This document shows, one piece after another, positions 1,895 through 47,606 of a DNA stretch of 64,000 nucleotides. Under the pieces are notes generated by a model that was not told the DNA's origin, did no database searches, and saw nothing but the letters and a program-made list of their open reading frames with translations. A program made the translations under genes and the position numbers. The stretch spans positions 248,001 to 312,000 of the forward strand of contig NZ_MDVN01000022.1 in assembly GCF_002741945.1 (NCBI RefSeq). The letters are read 5' to 3'. Numbering within the stretch: position 1 is the stretch's first letter; the number at the start of each line of letters is the position of its first letter. This stretch comes from Gaetbulibacter sp. 4G1. Its GTDB lineage: Bacteria; Bacteroidota; Bacteroidia; Flavobacteriales; Flavobacteriaceae.

Positions 1895-2058
1895 TTTGGG
1901 CGTATCATTTTAATAAAAATGTCAGGCTATCCGCTATATCTTTCTTGTGCTTAAAATACTTCATGTATCCCATAAAGTGTTTCCTCCTATCATAAAACAA
2001 ATTCCATCACACTTATTATTAAGCACAAAAAAGGATGCCGCTACTATCCTTTGCGCAA
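1895..2058 (+). repeat. Structured intergenic element, copy A
   Basis: The unit begins TTTGGGCGT (1895-1903), continues with GTCAGGCTATCCGCTATATC (1921-1940) and a 10-bp perfect stem TTGTGCTTAA (1945-1954) / TTAAGCACAA (2019-2028), and ends with AAGGATGCCGCTACTATCC (2031-2049) followed by TTTGCGCAAAT. The same ordered blocks recur at 28349-28518 (minus strand) and 44861-44947. The 64-nt interior of the stem is not conserved. It does not encode a protein that could be supported. Confidence 0.75.
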
Positions 2059-11035: not shown

Positions 11036-11082
11036 CGCCCTCATTAATAACCGAGGTCGAGAACCTCAAATAATTAATTATT

Positions 11083-11601
11083 ATGCCAGTAAAAATTAGA
11101 TTACAAAGACACGGTAAAAAAGGGAAACCTTACTATTGGATAGTTGCAGCAGATGCACGTTCAAAAAGAGATGGTAAATACTTAGAGAAATTAGGTGCTT
11201 ACAATCCAAACACAAACCCAGCAACTGTTGAATTAGACGTTGATGGTGCTGTAAAATGGCTACAGAATGGTGCACAACCAACTGATACAGCTAAAAACTT
11301 ATTATCTTATAAAGGCGCTTTACTAAAAAATCATCTTGTAGGTGGTGTAAGAAAAGGAGCTTTAACTGAAGAGCAAGCAGAAGCAAAATTTACTGCTTGG
11401 TTAGAAGAAAAAACAAGCAAAGTACAAGCTAAAGCTGACGGTTTATCTGAAGCAGAAGCTAAAGCTAAAGCTGAGGCATTAGCAGCTGAAAAAGCTGTTA
11501 ACGAAGCAAGAATAGCAGCGGCTGCTCCTGTTGTTGAAGAAGAAGTAGCTGAAGAAGCTGCTCCTGCTGTTGAGGCTGAAGCTTCAAACGAAGAAGAATA
11601 A
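11083..11601 (+). CDS. rpsP: 30S ribosomal protein S16 with acidic C-terminal extension
   Basis: Residues 1-80 are canonical S16 (MPVKIRLQRHGKKGKPYYWIVAADARSKRDG is its start, then LEKLGAYNPN), which helps fold the 5' domain of 16S rRNA. The remaining roughly 90 residues are an Ala/Glu/Lys-rich tail ending in a strongly acidic segment, making the protein 172 rather than the usual 80-90 residues. Such tails are common in Bacteroidota S16. It has a strong promoter and a 12-bp-stem terminator, followed by rimM, whose product matures the 30S head region. Confidence 0.96.
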   Translation: MPVKIRLQRHGKKGKPYYWIVAADARSKRDGKYLEKLGAYNPNTNPATVELDVDGAVKWLQNGAQPTDTAKNLLSYKGALLKNHLVGGVRKGALTEEQAEAKFTAWLEEKTSKVQAKADGLSEAEAKAKAEALAAEKAVNEARIAAAAPVVEEEVAEEAAPAVEAEASNEEE

Positions 11602-26969: not shown

Positions 26970-27599
26970 TTACAATTCTTTAATGATGTTTATAAGGGTT
27001 ATTATCGAAATCACTCCTGTAATGCCTCCAATAATATAATTCATACTTCTTTGAGATGTAAACGACTTTTGCTTGATTTTATCAAAAAAGAAAATATACA
27101 TATATAGCATTACAAAAGTGCCAGAAGCTGCACCTGCAACATATGATATAATACTTATTTGATCGAATTTTAACCACTCGAAAGAGGCTAAAGTAATAGT
27201 CATGTATGCTTGATATGGTATAGGAAACACATTTATTGAAGACAAGAATAGGCCTTGAAAAAAACGACTGTGTTTGCTTCTTATTTTAGGTTCTATCTGC
27301 TGTTTGGGTTGCTTTTTAGCTATAAACAAAAAATAAATTGTGATTAAAATAAAAATAACTAATGCTACACGCTGAAGAATATCTATAACTTCAGGATGAT
27401 TACTTAAATATCTTGCGAAAATAGCAGCAATATAAGTTTGGGCAATTACAATAACACAAACGCCAATGGAAAATACAATACCCCTAGAATGCCCTTCTTT
27501 TAAGCTTATTTTGGCTGCCGTCATATTTAACAAGCCAGGTGGAATAACTCCAACTAATGCTATAAATAATCCTAAAAAAAAGATAAAAGTAATATCCAC
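26970..27599 (-). CDS. LysE/RhtB-family transporter
   Basis: This 209-residue protein has about six membrane helices with the family signature near the N-terminus, ALVGVIPPGLLNMTAAKISLKEG split over residues 15-37, where the PPG/PGP motif lies in the first loop. LysE/RhtB proteins export amino acids or related compounds. The substrate cannot be assigned. The start codon overlaps the trmB stop by 1 bp and the gene is followed by the ATL gene, so the three are probably transcribed together. Confidence 0.82.
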   Translation of the reverse strand: MDITFIFFLGLFIALVGVIPPGLLNMTAAKISLKEGHSRGIVFSIGVCVIVIAQTYIAAIFARYLSNHPEVIDILQRVALVIFILITIYFLFIAKKQPKQQIEPKIRSKHSRFFQGLFLSSINVFPIPYQAYMTITLASFEWLKFDQISIISYVAGAASGTFVMLYMYIFFFDKIKQKSFTSQRSMNYIIGGITGVISIITLINIIKEL

Positions 27600-28276
27600 T
27601 AACCTTTAATTTTAAACCTAATATACGTAATTGGTTTGTTTTGCTCTAAATATTGTGATTCATAATACGTTTGAATGCTAGTAACTTCTTCTGGACTCCC
27701 TTCTTGTTTATACACATTATGGTTTGCATAAAGTACCTCGTGTCCAGCTCCGTGCAACAGCCCAAGTGTATAACCATGCATAAACTCGCTATCGGTTTTT
27801 AAATTAACTACGCCTTCTGGTTTTAAAATGGTTCTATAACGTTTTAAAAAGGTCGCATTAGTCATGCGATGTTTTGTACGCTTGTATTTTATTTGAGGAT
27901 CGGGGAAGGTAATCCAGATTTCATCTACTTCGTTTTCTGCAAAGGCATAATCTATAAGTTCAATTTGCGTACGTAAAAACGCTACGTTTTCTATTTCGTC
28001 TTCAATAGCTGTTTTTGCACCTCTCCAAAAACGAGCTCCCTTTATATCTATTCCAATAAAATTTTTATTGGGATATTTTTGAGCTAAAGCTACGCTGTAT
28101 TCTCCTTTGCCACACCCTAATTCTAAAACTAACGGATTATTGTTTTTGAAAACCGCTTTTTGCCAATTGCCTTTTAAATCGAAATTTGAGTTTACTAACT
28201 CATCTCTTGTTGGTTGAAACACATTAGCAAAGGTTTCGTTTTCTTTAAATCTTTTAAGTTTATTTTTGCTTCCCAC
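27599..28276 (-). CDS. trmB: tRNA (guanine(46)-N7)-methyltransferase
   Basis: A 225-residue SAM methyltransferase with the TrmB signatures: LVLELGCGKGEYSVALAQKYPNKNFIGIDIKGARFWRGAKTA (motif I region near residues 49-90), the conserved IWITFPDPQIKYKRTKHRMT with catalytic Asp, and a C-terminal TYYESQYLEQNKPITYIRF. It forms m7G46 in the variable loop of tRNAs. It heads a minus-strand run with the LysE and ATL genes. Confidence 0.95.
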   Translation of the reverse strand: MGSKNKLKRFKENETFANVFQPTRDELVNSNFDLKGNWQKAVFKNNNPLVLELGCGKGEYSVALAQKYPNKNFIGIDIKGARFWRGAKTAIEDEIENVAFLRTQIELIDYAFAENEVDEIWITFPDPQIKYKRTKHRMTNATFLKRYRTILKPEGVVNLKTDSEFMHGYTLGLLHGAGHEVLYANHNVYKQEGSPEEVTSIQTYYESQYLEQNKPITYIRFKIKG

Positions 28277-28348: not shown

Positions 28349-28518
28349 AAATTTGCGTGAGGGATTGATACGACATCCTTTTTTGTGCAGACTAAGGTCA
28401 GTTGATTGAAAATATGATTATAATGTATTTACGCATTTGGTGAGATACTGAAACAAGTTCTGCACAAGAAAAGATAAAGTGGAAAGCCCGACTTGAGTTC
28501 GCGAAAGGCACGCCCAAA
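28349..28518 (-). repeat. Structured intergenic element, copy B
   Basis: Read on the minus strand it starts TTTTGGGCGTG (around 28518), contains GTCGGGCTTTCCACTTTATC, a perfect 9-bp stem TTGTGCAGA / TCTGCACAA (28459-28467 with 28383-28391) around about 67 nt, and ends AAGGATGTCGTATCAATCCC followed by TCACGCAAAT. Block order and orientation match copy A, but the distal half of the stem has a different sequence on both arms. It fills the gap between trmB and the glycosyltransferase gene. Confidence 0.75.
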
Positions 28519-28526
28519 ATATTACA

Positions 28527-29582
28527 ATGAAAAAACGAATACTAATAGCGCCGCTAAATTGGGGTTTGGGTCATGCTACTAGATGCATCCCTATTATTAA
28601 TGCTCTTATTGATTATGGTTTTGAACCCGTTTTAGCAAGTGATGGAAATGCTTTGTTACTTTTACAAAAGGAGTTTCCTAACCTTTCCTCTGTTGAATTA
28701 CCATCGTATAATATTACTTATGCTAAAAGTGGAAAGCTTTTTAAATTGAAATTATTAAAAGATTCTCCAAAACTTATTAAGGCTATTAAATCTGAAAAAA
28801 AAGTACTAAAAGAAGTTATTGAAAATAATAATATTTCAGGAGTTATTTCAGATAACCGATTGGGTATATACAGCAAAAAAGTTCCATCTGTTTTCATTAC
28901 GCATCAATTAAATGTTTTAAGTGGGAACACAACATGGTTAAGCACAAAAATGCATCAAAAATTTATACACAAATTTGATATTTGCTGGGTTCCTGACATA
29001 GAAGACAGCACCAATTTAAGTGGAAAATTAGGGCATGCCGACTCGCTTAAGATTTCTAAAAAATATATTGGTCCTTTAAGCAGGTTTAAAAGAGAAAGCT
29101 TAAACATAGTAAATGATATTTTGGTTTTACTTTCTGGTCCTGAACCACAACGAACTTTGCTTGAAGAAAAGTTACTAGTTGAATTAAAAAACTATAATGG
29201 GAAAATTATTTTTGTAAAAGGTGTACTTGAAAAAAAACAAGCCAGAAAAAGAATTGGTAACATGGTTATTTATAATTTTATGACTTCTGAATTACTCGAA
29301 AAAACTATAAATGAAAGTGCTTTAGTAATAGCTAGATCTGGTTATACTACAATAATGGATTTAGCGAAGCTTAATAAAAAAGCCTTCTTTATACCAACTC
29401 CAGGGCAATTTGAACAAGAATATTTAGCCAAAAGATTAGCCCGTTTAAATTTAGTTCCTAGTTGTAGTCAAAATGATTTTACAATAGAGAAACTTAAAAA
29501 AACAGACCACTTTAAAGGTTTAGAATCTTTTGATAACTGCGAGGATTTTAAAGATTTATTCGGCCTTTTCGAGCGTGAATGA
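28527..29582 (+). CDS. MurG-like glycosyltransferase
   Basis: The 351-residue protein has a two-domain GT-B layout. The N-terminal domain starts with ILIAPLNWGLGHATRCIPIINALI, a glycine/histidine motif like that of MurG/GT28 enzymes. The C-terminal domain holds SALVIARSGYTTIMDLAKLNKKAFFIPTPGQFEQEYLAKRL in its nucleotide-sugar binding region (around residues 265-310). No signal peptide or membrane helix is visible. The acceptor is unknown; it is not next to cell-wall genes. Its last 27 bp overlap the convergent histidine kinase gene. Confidence 0.8.
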   Translation: MKKRILIAPLNWGLGHATRCIPIINALIDYGFEPVLASDGNALLLLQKEFPNLSSVELPSYNITYAKSGKLFKLKLLKDSPKLIKAIKSEKKVLKEVIENNNISGVISDNRLGIYSKKVPSVFITHQLNVLSGNTTWLSTKMHQKFIHKFDICWVPDIEDSTNLSGKLGHADSLKISKKYIGPLSRFKRESLNIVNDILVLLSGPEPQRTLLEEKLLVELKNYNGKIIFVKGVLEKKQARKRIGNMVIYNFMTSELLEKTINESALVIARSGYTTIMDLAKLNKKAFFIPTPGQFEQEYLAKRLARLNLVPSCSQNDFTIEKLKKTDHFKGLESFDNCEDFKDLFGLFERE

Positions 29583-43492: not shown

Positions 43493-44857
43493 ATGCGAAA
43501 GATTTTAGTTATTGGTTCTGGAAAATCGACATCATATCTTATAAAATATTTATTAGATAAGTCTACATCTGAAAACCTGCACATTACCATTGGCGACTTA
43601 CATATAAAAAATGCTGAAAAGCTAATTGGCAATCATGAAAACGCTACAGCCATAACACTAGATGTGTTTAATGAAAATTCGCGTGTTGAGGCTATTAAAA
43701 ATGCTGACATTGTAGTATCTATGCTTCCTGCGCGTTTTCATATAGAAGTTGCAAAAAACTGCATTACCTATAAAAAACATATGGTAACGGCTTCATATGT
43801 AAGCCCAGAAATGCAAGCTTTACATGATGATGCCAAAGCAAACGGACTTGTTTTAATGAATGAAATTGGTGTAGATCCTGGTATAGACCATATGAGTGCT
43901 ATGCAAGTTTTAGATAATATTAGAAGTAAAGGAGGCAAAATTATTTTATTTGAATCTTTTACTGGCGGGCTTGTAGCACCAGAAAGTGATACTAATTTAT
44001 GGAACTATAAGTTTACATGGAATCCCAGAAATGTTGTTGTAGCTGGGCAAGGCAGTGCTGCAAAATTTTTACAAGAAGGCACTTATAAATATATACCGTA
44101 CAATCGTTTATTTAGACGTACCGAGTTTTTAGAAGTTGATGGTTTTGGTCGTTTTGAAGTATATGCTAATCGCGACTCTTTAAAGTATCAAAGCGTTTAT
44201 GGTTTAGATAATATTAAAACTTTATATCGAGGTACTATGCGTCGCGTTGGTTTTAGTCGTGCTTGGAATATTTTTGTAACCTTAGGAATGACTGATGACA
44301 GCTATACTATTGACGATAGTGAAAACATGAGTTACCGCGATTTTGTTAATGCTTTTTTAACTTATAGCCCTACTGACTCTGTAGAACTAAAATTAAGGCA
44401 TGCCCTTAAAATAGATCAAGACGATATTGTTTGGGATAAACTAGTTGAACTCGATATTTTTAATGATAAAAAACGAGTTGAACTAAAAAAGGCAACACCT
44501 GCCCAAATTCTTCAAAAAATATTAATGGATAGTTGGACATTAAAAGAAGACGATAAAGATATGATTGTTATGTACCATAAATTTGGGTACGAACTTAATG
44601 GCAAAAAACACCAAATAGATGCTACTATGGTTGCAGTAGGAGAAGATCAAACCTATACTGCTATGGCAAAAACCGTTGGCTTACCAGTTGCCATTGCTAC
44701 ACTTGCCATATTAAACAAAAAAATTACAACGCCTGGTGTACAAATGCCTATTACTAAAGAAGTTTATGAGCCTATTTTAGAAGAGCTAAAAGATTTTGGT
44801 GTTCAATTTAACGAAAAAGAAGTGCCTTATTTAGGTTACAATCCTTTAAATAATTAA
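43493..44857 (+). CDS. Saccharopine dehydrogenase family protein
   Basis: A 454-residue protein with an N-terminal Rossmann domain (KILVIGSGKSTSYLIKYLL, VVSMLPARFHIEVAKNCITYKKHMVTASYVSPEM, around residues 1-110) and the GVDPGIDHMSAMQVLD substrate-domain signature. It belongs to the glutamate-forming saccharopine reductase (LYS9) branch, which interconverts alpha-aminoadipate semialdehyde plus glutamate and saccharopine. With the glutaryl-CoA dehydrogenase-type enzyme at 19917 it would fit lysine degradation, although a partner lysine-forming half is not in the window. Confidence 0.87.
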   Translation: MRKILVIGSGKSTSYLIKYLLDKSTSENLHITIGDLHIKNAEKLIGNHENATAITLDVFNENSRVEAIKNADIVVSMLPARFHIEVAKNCITYKKHMVTASYVSPEMQALHDDAKANGLVLMNEIGVDPGIDHMSAMQVLDNIRSKGGKIILFESFTGGLVAPESDTNLWNYKFTWNPRNVVVAGQGSAAKFLQEGTYKYIPYNRLFRRTEFLEVDGFGRFEVYANRDSLKYQSVYGLDNIKTLYRGTMRRVGFSRAWNIFVTLGMTDDSYTIDDSENMSYRDFVNAFLTYSPTDSVELKLRHALKIDQDDIVWDKLVELDIFNDKKRVELKKATPAQILQKILMDSWTLKEDDKDMIVMYHKFGYELNGKKHQIDATMVAVGEDQTYTAMAKTVGLPVAIATLAILNKKITTPGVQMPITKEVYEPILEELKDFGVQFNEKEVPYLGYNPLNN

Positions 44858-44860
44858 TAT

Positions 44861-44947
44861 TTGGGCGTTACCACAAGGGTCGCGCTTTTTGTTGCAATCT
44901 TTTTTTCGTGCCTCAAAAAAAGGATTTCCACTACAATCGCTAACGCG
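44861..44947 (+). repeat. Structured intergenic element, copy C (short form)
   Basis: It starts TTGGGCGTTACC, continues GTCGCGCTTTTTGTTGCAAT, has a compact hairpin of T7 and A7 around CGTGCCTC (about 44900-44921), and ends AAGGATTTCCACTACAATCG followed by CTAACGCGGG. Block order and orientation equal copies A and B, but the internal stem is replaced by a short T/A stem. Confidence 0.72.
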
Positions 44948-44965: not shown

Positions 44966-45099
44966 TAACGTTTATGTATAAGATTAGTGGCGTGGTTTGA
45001 CACCGATATTTAATAAACAAATACTTGCCAGCGAAAAATTCCGAAGGAATTTTCCAAGTAGGCTATAACCAAGCCATTAATTTTATACTTTGTTGCCAA
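44966..45099. repeat. Long inverted-repeat element with nested hairpin
   Basis: Two 22-nt arms at 44976-44997 and 45067-45088 are inverted copies with 19 Watson-Crick pairs, two G-T pairs and one mismatch. Nested inside is a perfect 8-bp hairpin AAAATTCC (45035-45042) / GGAATTTT (45046-45053) with loop GAA. It lies directly behind copy C and ahead of the 3' end of the T9SS gene. I associate the surrounding text (ATTAGTGGCGTGGTTTG, ACCAAGCCATTAATTTTATA) with dispersed repeats in Flavobacteriia, but only one copy is in this window. Confidence 0.65.
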
Positions 45100-45107
45100 T
45101 AGTATTT

Positions 45108-47606
45108 TTATTCTTTAATAAATTTTTTAATTTCTGAATTCCCTATTTCGTCTTTTATTTTTATAAAATATAGTCCAGTATTTAGTAAAGAAACATCAAT
45201 AGTGGTTTTATCAATTTGGTATACAACTATTTGCCCTAAATTATTATATATCTCTATTTCACTTATTCTTGATTTTGATTTAATGTTAAAGAGACCAACT
45301 GTTGGGTTCGGATATATTTGAAAACTTGATAATTCGGTTTTATTTATACTCAATGTATTAGCTATTTCTGTACTAACCGTATTAGTTATTATAGGTAAAT
45401 TAAAATCAAAGAAAATATCAGCTTTATTTAGCATAATATCTCCAATAGCAATACTTTCTTTTGGCTTTATTTTATAAGCTATAAATCCATGAGAGTTCGG
45501 TTCATCAGTAGTGCTATCTGGTAAATAAATACCATTAAAAATAAAAGACACTTGATTGCCATCTTTGATTTCAACACGGTTTGTATGGCTATAACTTTCT
45601 AATTGTATGGTATTCCAATCTAGATTGGGGTCTAAAATATTATCTACTCTAACATTAATTGCATCTGCTGTTCCTGTATTTTGAAAACGGATAATATAGT
45701 GTAAATATTCGTCAGTATCTTCTAGTAAAATTTCATTTCCCTCTAAAACAAGAATATCATTTGGATCATAAGAACCAATTACTGTTTGATTCAATTCAAA
45801 AACATTATCATCTTCTGTATAATCTTCTGAAACAGGGTTTATCAATGCTACAAAACTTAGAACATCGTTAATATTGGTTGTCGGAGGTGCTTTTACATTA
45901 AAATCTACATCTATAATTCTTGTTTCAAAAGGGTTTAAGCCAGTGTAATTAAAAGTAAGTGAATTGATTATTTGTTCAGAAGCAATCTCACTAGCAGTTA
46001 TAAAGCTTAGTTTTGAATCATCAAACTCTAATATTATGGTACCACTTAATTGATTTGTACCTACATTATTTAAAACTATTTGATAACTAGCATCAAAACC
46101 TGGCCTTGCTTGACTAGTTGGTAATAAACTTATGCTAACATCATTTATCTTTTGTGTAGGTGCTAGACAAAAATCTGCGGTGTCTGTATTACTAAGTCCT
46201 ACAAAATTAGAGCTATGAAAATCTGGACTTAAAGTATAAAATTCAGGAATTTTAGTAGTTATTGAAGTTGTAAAATCTCCAGGATTCGTATAAATTAAAT
46301 AGTTGCCGTTAGGTTGAGTAAAAGTTGAAAAACTATTCGTTCCATTGTCTGAAGTTACCATTATGGAGGGTGTCGATAAATCATTACTATCACAACCATT
46401 TAAATCTGTATCTGAAAGAATATTACCTTCGATAGTATTTCCTAAAAGACCTAAATTCTCAAACCAAACAACTTCATCATCAAGTCTAATTGGAATTACT
46501 ATGTCAATATCACCATCAAAATCAATATCACCTTTGCCTATTCCTTTTGGATAATTTAGTTCCGCATCAGCTATTTCTTGGCGAGCACCAAAATTTCCTT
46601 TTGCGTCAACATTTTCATACCAAAATATTTTCCTTTCGGAATATGATAGACAAATAATATCCTGATCACCATCATTATCAATGTCTATTGAAGTAGACCA
46701 ATAAAATGAGGTGTCGTTTACATCTATAACTTTTTCATCTCCAAAACTTCCTAATGAATCTTCATTTTCATACCAAACAATTCTATCATTTCTTCCTATA
46801 GAGCTAATTCCTGAAATAATGTCTCCATCTCCATCTTTGTCTATATCAGATATATAAATTTCAGTTGGTCTTTCATATATAGACCCACTTACTTCGTTAG
46901 TGATTATTTTTCTACCGGAAAAAGTTCCTAGCACTTCTAAGTTCTCAAATAAATAAACATCATGACGAAGAGTAACTATAACATCCAAATCATTATCATC
47001 ATCAATATCATAAGTTAGAATTTCATCAACAAAGTCATTAAACCCAGATATACCTCTCTCAAAAGACCATCCAAGAAATCCATATTGATTAATGCCTAAG
47101 TTTTTATGCCAAACTAAACCGTCATTGTTACCTCCGCTTCCTGAAGGTCTCATCGTAGCAACTACTACATCAAGAAGTCCATCTTTATCAATGTCTACAA
47201 CAGAGAATGATTCTCTAATACTATATTCTGTTGGAATAGTTATTTTATCAGAGAAATTCCCAAAACCATCGGTGTTTTCATAATAACTGAGTCTTCCAGA
47301 ACTAATTAAAATATCCATGTCACTATCATTATCAATATCAACTACTTTAATAACAGAAAACCCAGAACCCTCATCAATAATTTTTTCATTTGAAAATGAA
47401 CCCACTCCATCAATGTTTTCAAACCAAACTAACTTATTTGAGTTATTCGCAACGATGTCTAAATCACCATCGCTGTCTAAATCTACTGCCCGCGTAGATG
47501 ATGCTGATTCAAAGGTTGTCGATAAACTATGTTTTTGAAACCCAATTTGAGCATTGATATTTATAAACATTGTAATTGAGATGAGCTGAAGTAGTTTTTT
47601 TTTCAT
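45108..47606 (-). CDS. Secreted FG-GAP/VCBS repeat protein with T9SS sorting domain
   Basis: An 832-residue protein: Sec signal peptide (ends INA), at least seven FG-GAP/VCBS-like repeats with the calcium-binding pattern DxDxDGDxD (DLDSDGDLDIVANN, DIDNDSDMDILIS, DIDKDGLLDVVVA, DIDNDGDQDIICL) over about 30-385, a SD-repeat/CARDB-like beta region (about 480-640), a DUF11-like block (YIIRFQNTGTADAINVRVDNILDPNLDWNTI) and a T9SS type A sorting domain at the C-terminus (FQIYPNPTVGLFNIKS). It is exported by type IX secretion and probably acts as an adhesin or polysaccharide/cell-surface protein. Monocistronic. Confidence 0.87.
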   Translation of the reverse strand: MKKKLLQLISITMFININAQIGFQKHSLSTTFESASSTRAVDLDSDGDLDIVANNSNKLVWFENIDGVGSFSNEKIIDEGSGFSVIKVVDIDNDSDMDILISSGRLSYYENTDGFGNFSDKITIPTEYSIRESFSVVDIDKDGLLDVVVATMRPSGSGGNNDGLVWHKNLGINQYGFLGWSFERGISGFNDFVDEILTYDIDDDNDLDVIVTLRHDVYLFENLEVLGTFSGRKIITNEVSGSIYERPTEIYISDIDKDGDGDIISGISSIGRNDRIVWYENEDSLGSFGDEKVIDVNDTSFYWSTSIDIDNDGDQDIICLSYSERKIFWYENVDAKGNFGARQEIADAELNYPKGIGKGDIDFDGDIDIVIPIRLDDEVVWFENLGLLGNTIEGNILSDTDLNGCDSNDLSTPSIMVTSDNGTNSFSTFTQPNGNYLIYTNPGDFTTSITTKIPEFYTLSPDFHSSNFVGLSNTDTADFCLAPTQKINDVSISLLPTSQARPGFDASYQIVLNNVGTNQLSGTIILEFDDSKLSFITASEIASEQIINSLTFNYTGLNPFETRIIDVDFNVKAPPTTNINDVLSFVALINPVSEDYTEDDNVFELNQTVIGSYDPNDILVLEGNEILLEDTDEYLHYIIRFQNTGTADAINVRVDNILDPNLDWNTIQLESYSHTNRVEIKDGNQVSFIFNGIYLPDSTTDEPNSHGFIAYKIKPKESIAIGDIMLNKADIFFDFNLPIITNTVSTEIANTLSINKTELSSFQIYPNPTVGLFNIKSKSRISEIEIYNNLGQIVVYQIDKTTIDVSLLNTGLYFIKIKDEIGNSEIKKFIKE

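Follow-up and report, generated by a model that had tools for sequence, protein, structure and literature searches.

The window analyzed here, a stretch of 64,000 nt from Gaetbulibacter sp. 4G1, carries three copies of a structured intergenic element, A, B and C, which are collected with their neighbors in Table 1; copy C starts 5 nt after the stop of the ORF at 43493-44857. A covariance-model scan of the whole window matched all three to the Rfam family RF01705 (Flavo-1), in each case on the strand opposite to that used in the preliminary description; below, the latter is called the element strand and the former the Rfam strand. Copy C scored 56.1 bits (E=1.7e-9), copy A 49.9 bits (E=8.7e-8) and copy B, with the full model, 41.6 bits (E=1.6e-5). 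A and C pass the gathering cut-off of 42 bits, and B, 0.4 bits under it, was found at the E-value threshold. That A, B and C are three copies of Flavo-1 is secure. Re-reading them confirmed the order of blocks that they had been said to have in common and, to within a few bases, the places given to them, with the GGGCG starts at 1898-1902 (plus strand), 28515-28511 (minus strand) and 44863-44867 (plus strand). Likewise, the stem changes on both of its sides between A and B as had been noted (TTGTGC-TTAA...TTAA-GCACAA versus TTGTGC-AGA...TCT-GCACAA), and the RF01705 E-values place the likeness of the copies far beyond chance. The element had been proposed to be either an unnamed structured RNA or a non-autonomous mobile repeat: the family is real, its pairing is maintained and both readings are live, but it is not unnamed, as Flavo-1 was catalogued in 2010 as probably an RNA and not cis-regulatory in Table 1 of PMC2864571.

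At the gathering level, an Rfam scan of the window returned only Flavo-1 (A and C) and S16-Flavobacteria, a ribosomal protein leader that scored 59.2 bits at 11043-11078, immediately before the ORF at 11083. Directly after copy C lies a repeat of ~150 bp (44967-45132), single in this window, which we take to resemble an integron attC site. In the related genome G150 the same repeat occurs 14 times on one strand (C5:411629-446543), just beyond an integron-integrase-like ORF (C5:409514-410302; TIGR02249, below cut-off). The Gaetbulibacter genome has an integron-integrase-like ORF of its own, of 371 aa (G000:C23:61105-61917), which TIGR02249 matches in pieces of 105 and 96 bits, below its cut-off, as it also does in all 14 control genomes. 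An attC site as the identity of the Flavo-1 core itself was set aside, since the end motifs, judged by what we take to be the attC end motif, point the other way.

Table 1. Flavo-1 copies of the window, their parsed parts and their neighbors
Feature	Position in window	Strand	Remarks
Copy A, type I, in element orientation	1898..2057	+	RF01705 match on minus strand, 2061-1916
Copy A neighbors: thioredoxin ORF; ORF	1454-1771; 2158-2589	-; +	Divergent gap
Copy A P3 5′ arm	1924..1940	+	Parsed arm
Copy A long P3 tip, 89 nt	1941..2029	+	Orthologous tip in G150, 21 nt
Copy A P3 3′ arm	2030..2050	+	Parsed arm
Copy B, type I	28355..28515	-	RF01705 match on plus strand, 28350-28497
Copy B neighbors: TrmB ORF; glycosyltransferase-like ORF	27599-28276; 28527-29582	-; +	Divergent gap
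Copy B long P3 tip, 91 nt	28382..28472	-	Orthologous tip in G150, 16 nt
GAACTTGTTTC inside copy B P3 tip	28450-28460		
Copy C, type I, short tip	44863..44946	+	RF01705 match on minus strand, 44954-44874
Copy C P3 arms and tip	44882..44940	+	Site in G150 has an 86-nt tip with a CGTCATTGCGA-type palindrome

Across the Gaetbulibacter genome, 44 matches to RF01705 were found at E<=0.001, 35 of them above the cut-off; copy B is missing from this list, and the genome therefore holds at least 45 copies. Among the Flavobacteriaceae a match at E<=0.001 is present in 96 of 149 genomes (above the cut-off in 90), while 38 of 296 genomes of the phylum Bacteroidota have one at E<=1e-6, 29 of these 38 belonging to the same order, Flavobacteriales. 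One genome, G127, carries many high-scoring copies that reach up to 82 bits. By covariance model, by the P3 hairpin core described below and by its Bacteroidota range, this is the family presented in the accessible text of PMC2864571, and the paired core of RF01705 with its symmetric internal mismatches is present in the window copies. The Rfam model differs from the element described here in its 76 positions, in lacking the stems P1 and P2, in its opposite strand and in being typed as an sRNA gene. The family was already known, and what is added here are the extra stems, the exchange of tips and the sites common to several genera, none of which we found in the open-access text of the Flavo-1 papers; those that our searches of this literature returned give no function for it.

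The Flavo-1 fold

The element occurs in two forms. Type I, to which A, B, C and most copies of the Gaetbulibacter genome belong, reads GGCGTTACC-[P2]-GGTC-ab-GCTxT..., and type II, whose ends resemble the Rfam consensus ends, reads GAAGCTATTTC-ab-GCTxT.... P3 is a long irregular hairpin, the short helices of which are split by symmetric mismatches. Type I has two parts that the Rfam model lacks: P1, a stem on the outside of the fold, and P2, a side hairpin that is less secure. Conserved pairing extends outward past the stem first noticed, into the outer stem GCGTT:AACGC and probably the side hairpin, and the GCGTTA of copy C counts as an insertion in the Rfam model. With P1 and a probable P2 beside P3, a three-way junction is likely.

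The pairing of P3 was counted in 144 rows that were parsed without requiring its five variable pairs (2 rows re-use a 3′ arm already counted). These pairs are standard in 143 (a), 137 (b), 143 (x), 140 (p) and 135 (y) of the rows, with several pair types at each position, the first pair occurring as GC, CG and AT, and in all 144 the two arms agree in having or lacking one extra base pair of P3. The 3′ arm still pairs where the search left it unconstrained, in the type II scan described below (x in 87, b in 86 and y in 85 of 88 loci). To assess the P1+P2+P3 structure, 56 type I copies with short tips were aligned from their sequences only (56 of 57 were taken, with L138, a type II copy, left out). 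Over the 15 pairs of the structure, 95.7% of the cells are paired, against 84.3% in shuffled alignments and at most 41.1% when the structure is slid, and the covariation score is 0.328 against 0.122 for the shuffled alignments; none of 500 shuffles reaches either the observed score or the observed percentage paired, and 10 of the 15 pairs have changes on both sides. P1, which RNAalifold finds unaided, has both-sided changes in four of its five pairs. P2 is the weakest part: 86.9% of its cells are paired, one of its three pairs has both-sided changes, and RNAalifold did not draw it in the type I alignment. Longer P2 inserts, for example those of L019, L166, L169 and L188, keep a matching hairpin when read by eye.

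G-U pairs are rare, making up 11 of 996 core cells (9 of the 11 wobble on the Rfam strand and 2 on the element strand), a count restricted to copies already selected for having 4 or more of 6 pairs, to which the 144-row and 56-copy counts are preferred as evidence. By folding energy neither strand folds clearly better in 145 copies: the mean z is -1.43 on the element strand and -1.13 on the Rfam strand, and the Rfam strand is lower in 89 of them. Further copies and covariation beyond chance, on which the preliminary description had let its case turn, were both found, and its claim stands. The covariation is thus very strong and goes further than the Rfam model, and that the fold is kept by selection is nearly secure.

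Turnover of the hairpin tips

The interior of the element had been regarded as unconserved, a view that has to be qualified, as the interiors of A and B align to those of other copies and part of the interior consists of a second repeat that recurs. The whole core of copy B, interior included, matches one other copy of its own genome and two in G150 at 76-78%; copy A matches two of these three partners at 77-78% and the third at 72%. Several such copies, in Gaetbulibacter and in other genera, share GAACTTGTTT plus flanking bases.

At the sites of A, B and C, tip length differs between Gaetbulibacter sp. 4G1 and its ~92%-identical relative G150, a long tip in one genome facing a short tip in the other: A and B are the long ones in the window and C the short one (Table 1). 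The flanks of 30 of 40 loci of the Gaetbulibacter genome, compared with 43 loci of G150, find a match there, which does not show the other 10 to be absent from G150. Among the 26 pairs parsed on both sides, plus B, the tip length class differs in 5 of 27, namely at A, B, C, L008 and L012. The two genomes also show both-sided differences at A (C:G versus T:A) and at L005 and L006 (A:T versus G:C), and L023 has a different P3 type in each. Both arms can be copied together from another copy, and such paired changes therefore show that pairing is kept, not which force keeps it. At fixed sites the fold keeps an inherited base, and its tips turn over.

Several tips hold palindromes of the GAACTTGTTTCAG, TTCGACTnCGCTCAG and CGTCATTGCGA types, which are found elsewhere outside Flavo-1 as well. 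Going by tag and stem, these seem to resemble the CGTC/TGTC-tagged REPs; such REPs are on record in Bacteroidetes, and REP dimers inside other palindromes are on record in other genera, according to the accessible part of PMC3733652. Paired opposite palindromes of the CTTCGACT type, ending in GTCAG or GTGACA-like tags, were also seen in intergenic positions at L324, L327, L328 and L339, loci that lie in G207, G165, G203 and G202. The idea of a constant tip length was dropped, since tips span 15 to 110 nt in the 73 type II scan copies with a recognized 3′ arm. The RF01705 matches are probably limited in length.

Sites shared among genera and placement behind genes

The proteins flanking the fetched loci cluster across genera, with type II copies at orthologous sites in 4-8 genera. 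Upstream of the element lie sufD in 8 genera (with sufS grouped downstream in 6), aroC in 8, a gene that we take from its sequence to be hmgA-like in 5 (hppD downstream in 4), a presumably PhoH-like gene in 5 (a presumably purC-like gene downstream in 4), and a metal-binding ABC lipoprotein gene in 4. SufD, SufS, AroC, HPPD and the metal lipoprotein have NCBIfam support, some of them as N-terminal fragments below whole-protein cut-offs. Throughout these cross-genus groups the element strand is sense and the Rfam strand antisense to the upstream gene. Stop and element are mostly <20 nt apart, with a wider gap at a few sites; behind aroC the stop can be the TAG of the element itself. The gene for the metal ABC transporter substrate-binding lipoprotein has Flavo-1 behind it in several genera (L033, L034, L098, L152, L220 and related loci), and a few of the shared sites lie near metal-dependent functions (the metal lipoprotein, suf and hppD).

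In the 150 fetched copies for which both neighbors were called, the 5′ side of the element faces a gene end 108 times and a gene start 42 times; 102 of the gaps are tandem, and in these the element strand is sense 76 times and antisense 26 times. When named genomes were scanned for the 5′ arm of type II, 100 loci were obtained (the 3′ arm was unrecognized in 12 of them); the scanned genomes partly overlap the fetched set, with families being a safer unit than copies. Of 96 of these loci, 81 have a sense gene upstream, and by upstream gene family 37 are sense, 12 antisense and one mixed. A stop lies within 0-15 nt in 37 of 67 loci with a sense upstream gene, against 2 of 11, 4 of 22 and 1 of 52 for the other neighbor types. 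This closeness and the tip lengths were counted on the first 80 of the 100 scan loci, and the orientations on all 100; the genes were called by a crude longest-ORF script, with 6 fetched and 4 scan copies falling inside a called ORF.

A hairpin close behind stop codons could be expected of a family of intrinsic transcription terminators, as could the 18 convergent gaps among the 88 scanned gaps in which both neighbors were called. However, 55 of these 88 lie between tandem sense genes, such as sufD and sufS, the copies read by eye have no consistent T-run after the closing stem, and a terminator scan of copy C found none there, all of which makes this reading highly improbable. The strand data bear on another possibility, namely that the copies are genes for trans-acting small RNAs transcribed from the Rfam strand, in keeping with the type (Gene; sRNA) and strand given by Rfam, with the rating in Table 1 of PMC2864571 and with the lean of the wobbles toward that strand (9 versus 2). 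We consider this improbable too: the copies number at least 45 in one genome, many of them placed by neighboring stops, and the Rfam strand is the antisense one at the cross-genus sites. Moreover, in the Flavobacterium psychrophilum transcriptome, as reported in the accessible part of PMC9723704, Flavo-1 matches are sense and antisense alike and many fall outside transcribed regions.

A universal 3′-UTR rule was rejected by 30 loci from the genus of G127, inferred to be Flavobacterium (one of the 30 comes from G127, a genome that the earlier sets also included): a sense stop is found within 100 nt at 11 of them, and at 15 there is an antisense gene start only. A 3′-UTR role is therefore not universal. 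The 19 copies of G127 are nearly neutral, with 11 gene ends and 8 gene starts on their 5′ side. The strand rule is thus either lineage-specific or a mark of older, retained copies.

Where a sense copy lies no more than 20 nt behind the upstream stop, its distance from that stop tends toward one residue class modulo 3, into which fall 50 of 69 type II copies (19 of 27 upstream families) and 22 of 34 type I copies (15 of 24 families). Type II favors -1, 8 and 11 nt and type I favors 0 and 6 nt; the commonest arrangements are gaps of 8 or 11 nt for type II and of 6 nt for type I, or a boundary TAG that doubles as the stop. In the favored class the boundary triplet T(A/T)G falls in frame. In the 100-locus scan, which includes 80 loci already counted, 35 of 48 copies belong to the same class, as do 17 of 22 families; in the genus of G127, 5 of 7 copies do. 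Insertion into coding ends as the cause was rejected for sufD: of 60 matched genomes 30 were read, and in these the SufD C-terminus (GFDL/GFNL + stop) is similar whether the element is present or not. A fixed stop in the element leader is likewise unsupported, stops at the 8-nt position being found in 29 of 70 sense copies and in 5 of 36 copies without a sense gene. It is conceivable, if unlikely, that Flavo-1 is a cis element coupled to translation termination, set at fixed codons behind the stop and with exchangeable tips that accept REP-like palindromes.

Gain, loss and the nature of the family

The Gaetbulibacter genome has no match to the Y1 transposase family PF01797, which is matched in 8 of 12 copy-bearing genomes and missing from the other 4, these being the Gaetbulibacter genome and three other copy-rich ones. 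Mobilization of the RAYT/IS200 type was therefore rejected for this genome and is not general, and no autonomous partner was found in a search that covered the Y1 family. One G127 copy was not found in five relatives in which both flanks matched (G204, G158 and G207 by alignment, G202 and G192 by pattern only); four more stretches are also without it, but may not cover the site. This distribution would fit acquisition by a single lineage. A second G127 site holds the element, with different tips, in 5 of 6 compared genomes (G127 included, and G154 by alignment only). Between sufD and sufS a recognizable core is present in 6 of 30 genomes of the family that were read, with decayed or altered remnants in some others, and loss is therefore common too; G034 lacks the core at this site, which fits a deletion between short repeats as well as it fits an empty site. 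Comparison with G149 and G006 did not yield clean empty sites at A, B or C: decayed relics are present in both genomes at A, and in G149 and perhaps G006 at B, while downstream synteny is lost in G006 at C. No clean insertion boundary or target duplication was resolved.

Flavo-1 is like the REP/BIME repeats, as the accessible part of PMC3733652 describes them, in being palindromic and present in many copies, mostly in tandem or convergent gaps and downstream of coding regions. It differs from them in its larger size, internal mismatches and extra stems, and in that its own genome is without a Y1 transposase. By eye, no unpaired GTAG/CGTC tag was found at the foot of the aligned or listed Flavo-1 cores; palindromes of the CGTC/TGTC type occur in some tips and outside the element, not in the core. 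MITEs are short, non-coding, dispersed elements with inverted ends that have been gained in some lineages, and Flavo-1 shares each of these traits when compared with that general description. Unlike MITEs, it has end repeats of only 5-6 nt, which themselves covary, and no target duplication was established.

The best-supported working model, which we put at about even odds, is that Flavo-1 is a dispersed repeat of a REP-like kind, conserved in its fold, and that many of its copies may act in cis at mRNA 3′ ends; it is from their retention across genera on the same strand close behind stops that we infer the cis action. Flavo-1 would then behave like the REP/BIME repeats of other bacteria. New copies would arise, in this genome, by a route without a Y1/RAYT transposase, existing ones would be edited by exchange with other copies, and those at gene 3′ ends would be retained because the folded transcript acts in cis as a 3′-end or between-cistron mRNA structure. 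A and B would be neutral or 5′-leader copies; their placement in divergent gaps, the rarity of G-U pairs and the retention of the suf core in only 6 of 30 genomes speak against this model, as do the 30 loci from the genus of G127, the near neutrality of the G127 copies, the F. psychrophilum matches and the lack of a clearly better-folding strand.

The main rival model has Flavo-1 as a non-autonomous DNA element, MITE- or REP-like, that is purely selfish. Its hairpin would be needed as DNA for a putative enzyme, with the 3′-end bias marking where insertions harm least. Such an element would account for the tens of copies in many genomes, including the many of up to 82 bits in G127, for the G127 copy not found in five flank-matched relatives, and for the scarcity of G-U pairs, which would be expected where the two DNA strands are both of importance. 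The indifference of the F. psychrophilum matches to strand, in the accessible account of PMC9723704, and the weak or absent strand bias in the high-copy genus of G127 also favor it. Nevertheless, we regard it as possible rather than probable, given the same-strand orthologous copies behind the same genes in 4-8 genera (and in more genera in the named-genome scan), the Y1_Tnp domain missing from 4 of 12 copy-bearing genomes including that of Gaetbulibacter, and the lack of a resolved insertion boundary or target duplication.

For the family as catalogued, these results suggest that its entry lacks one or two stems of type I and runs antisense to the upstream gene at the cross-genus sites. The positions between sufD and sufS, after aroC and upstream of hppD are concrete sites at which the function of Flavo-1 could be probed, and the element offers a clear case of a hairpin in which the base is inherited and the tips are exchanged.
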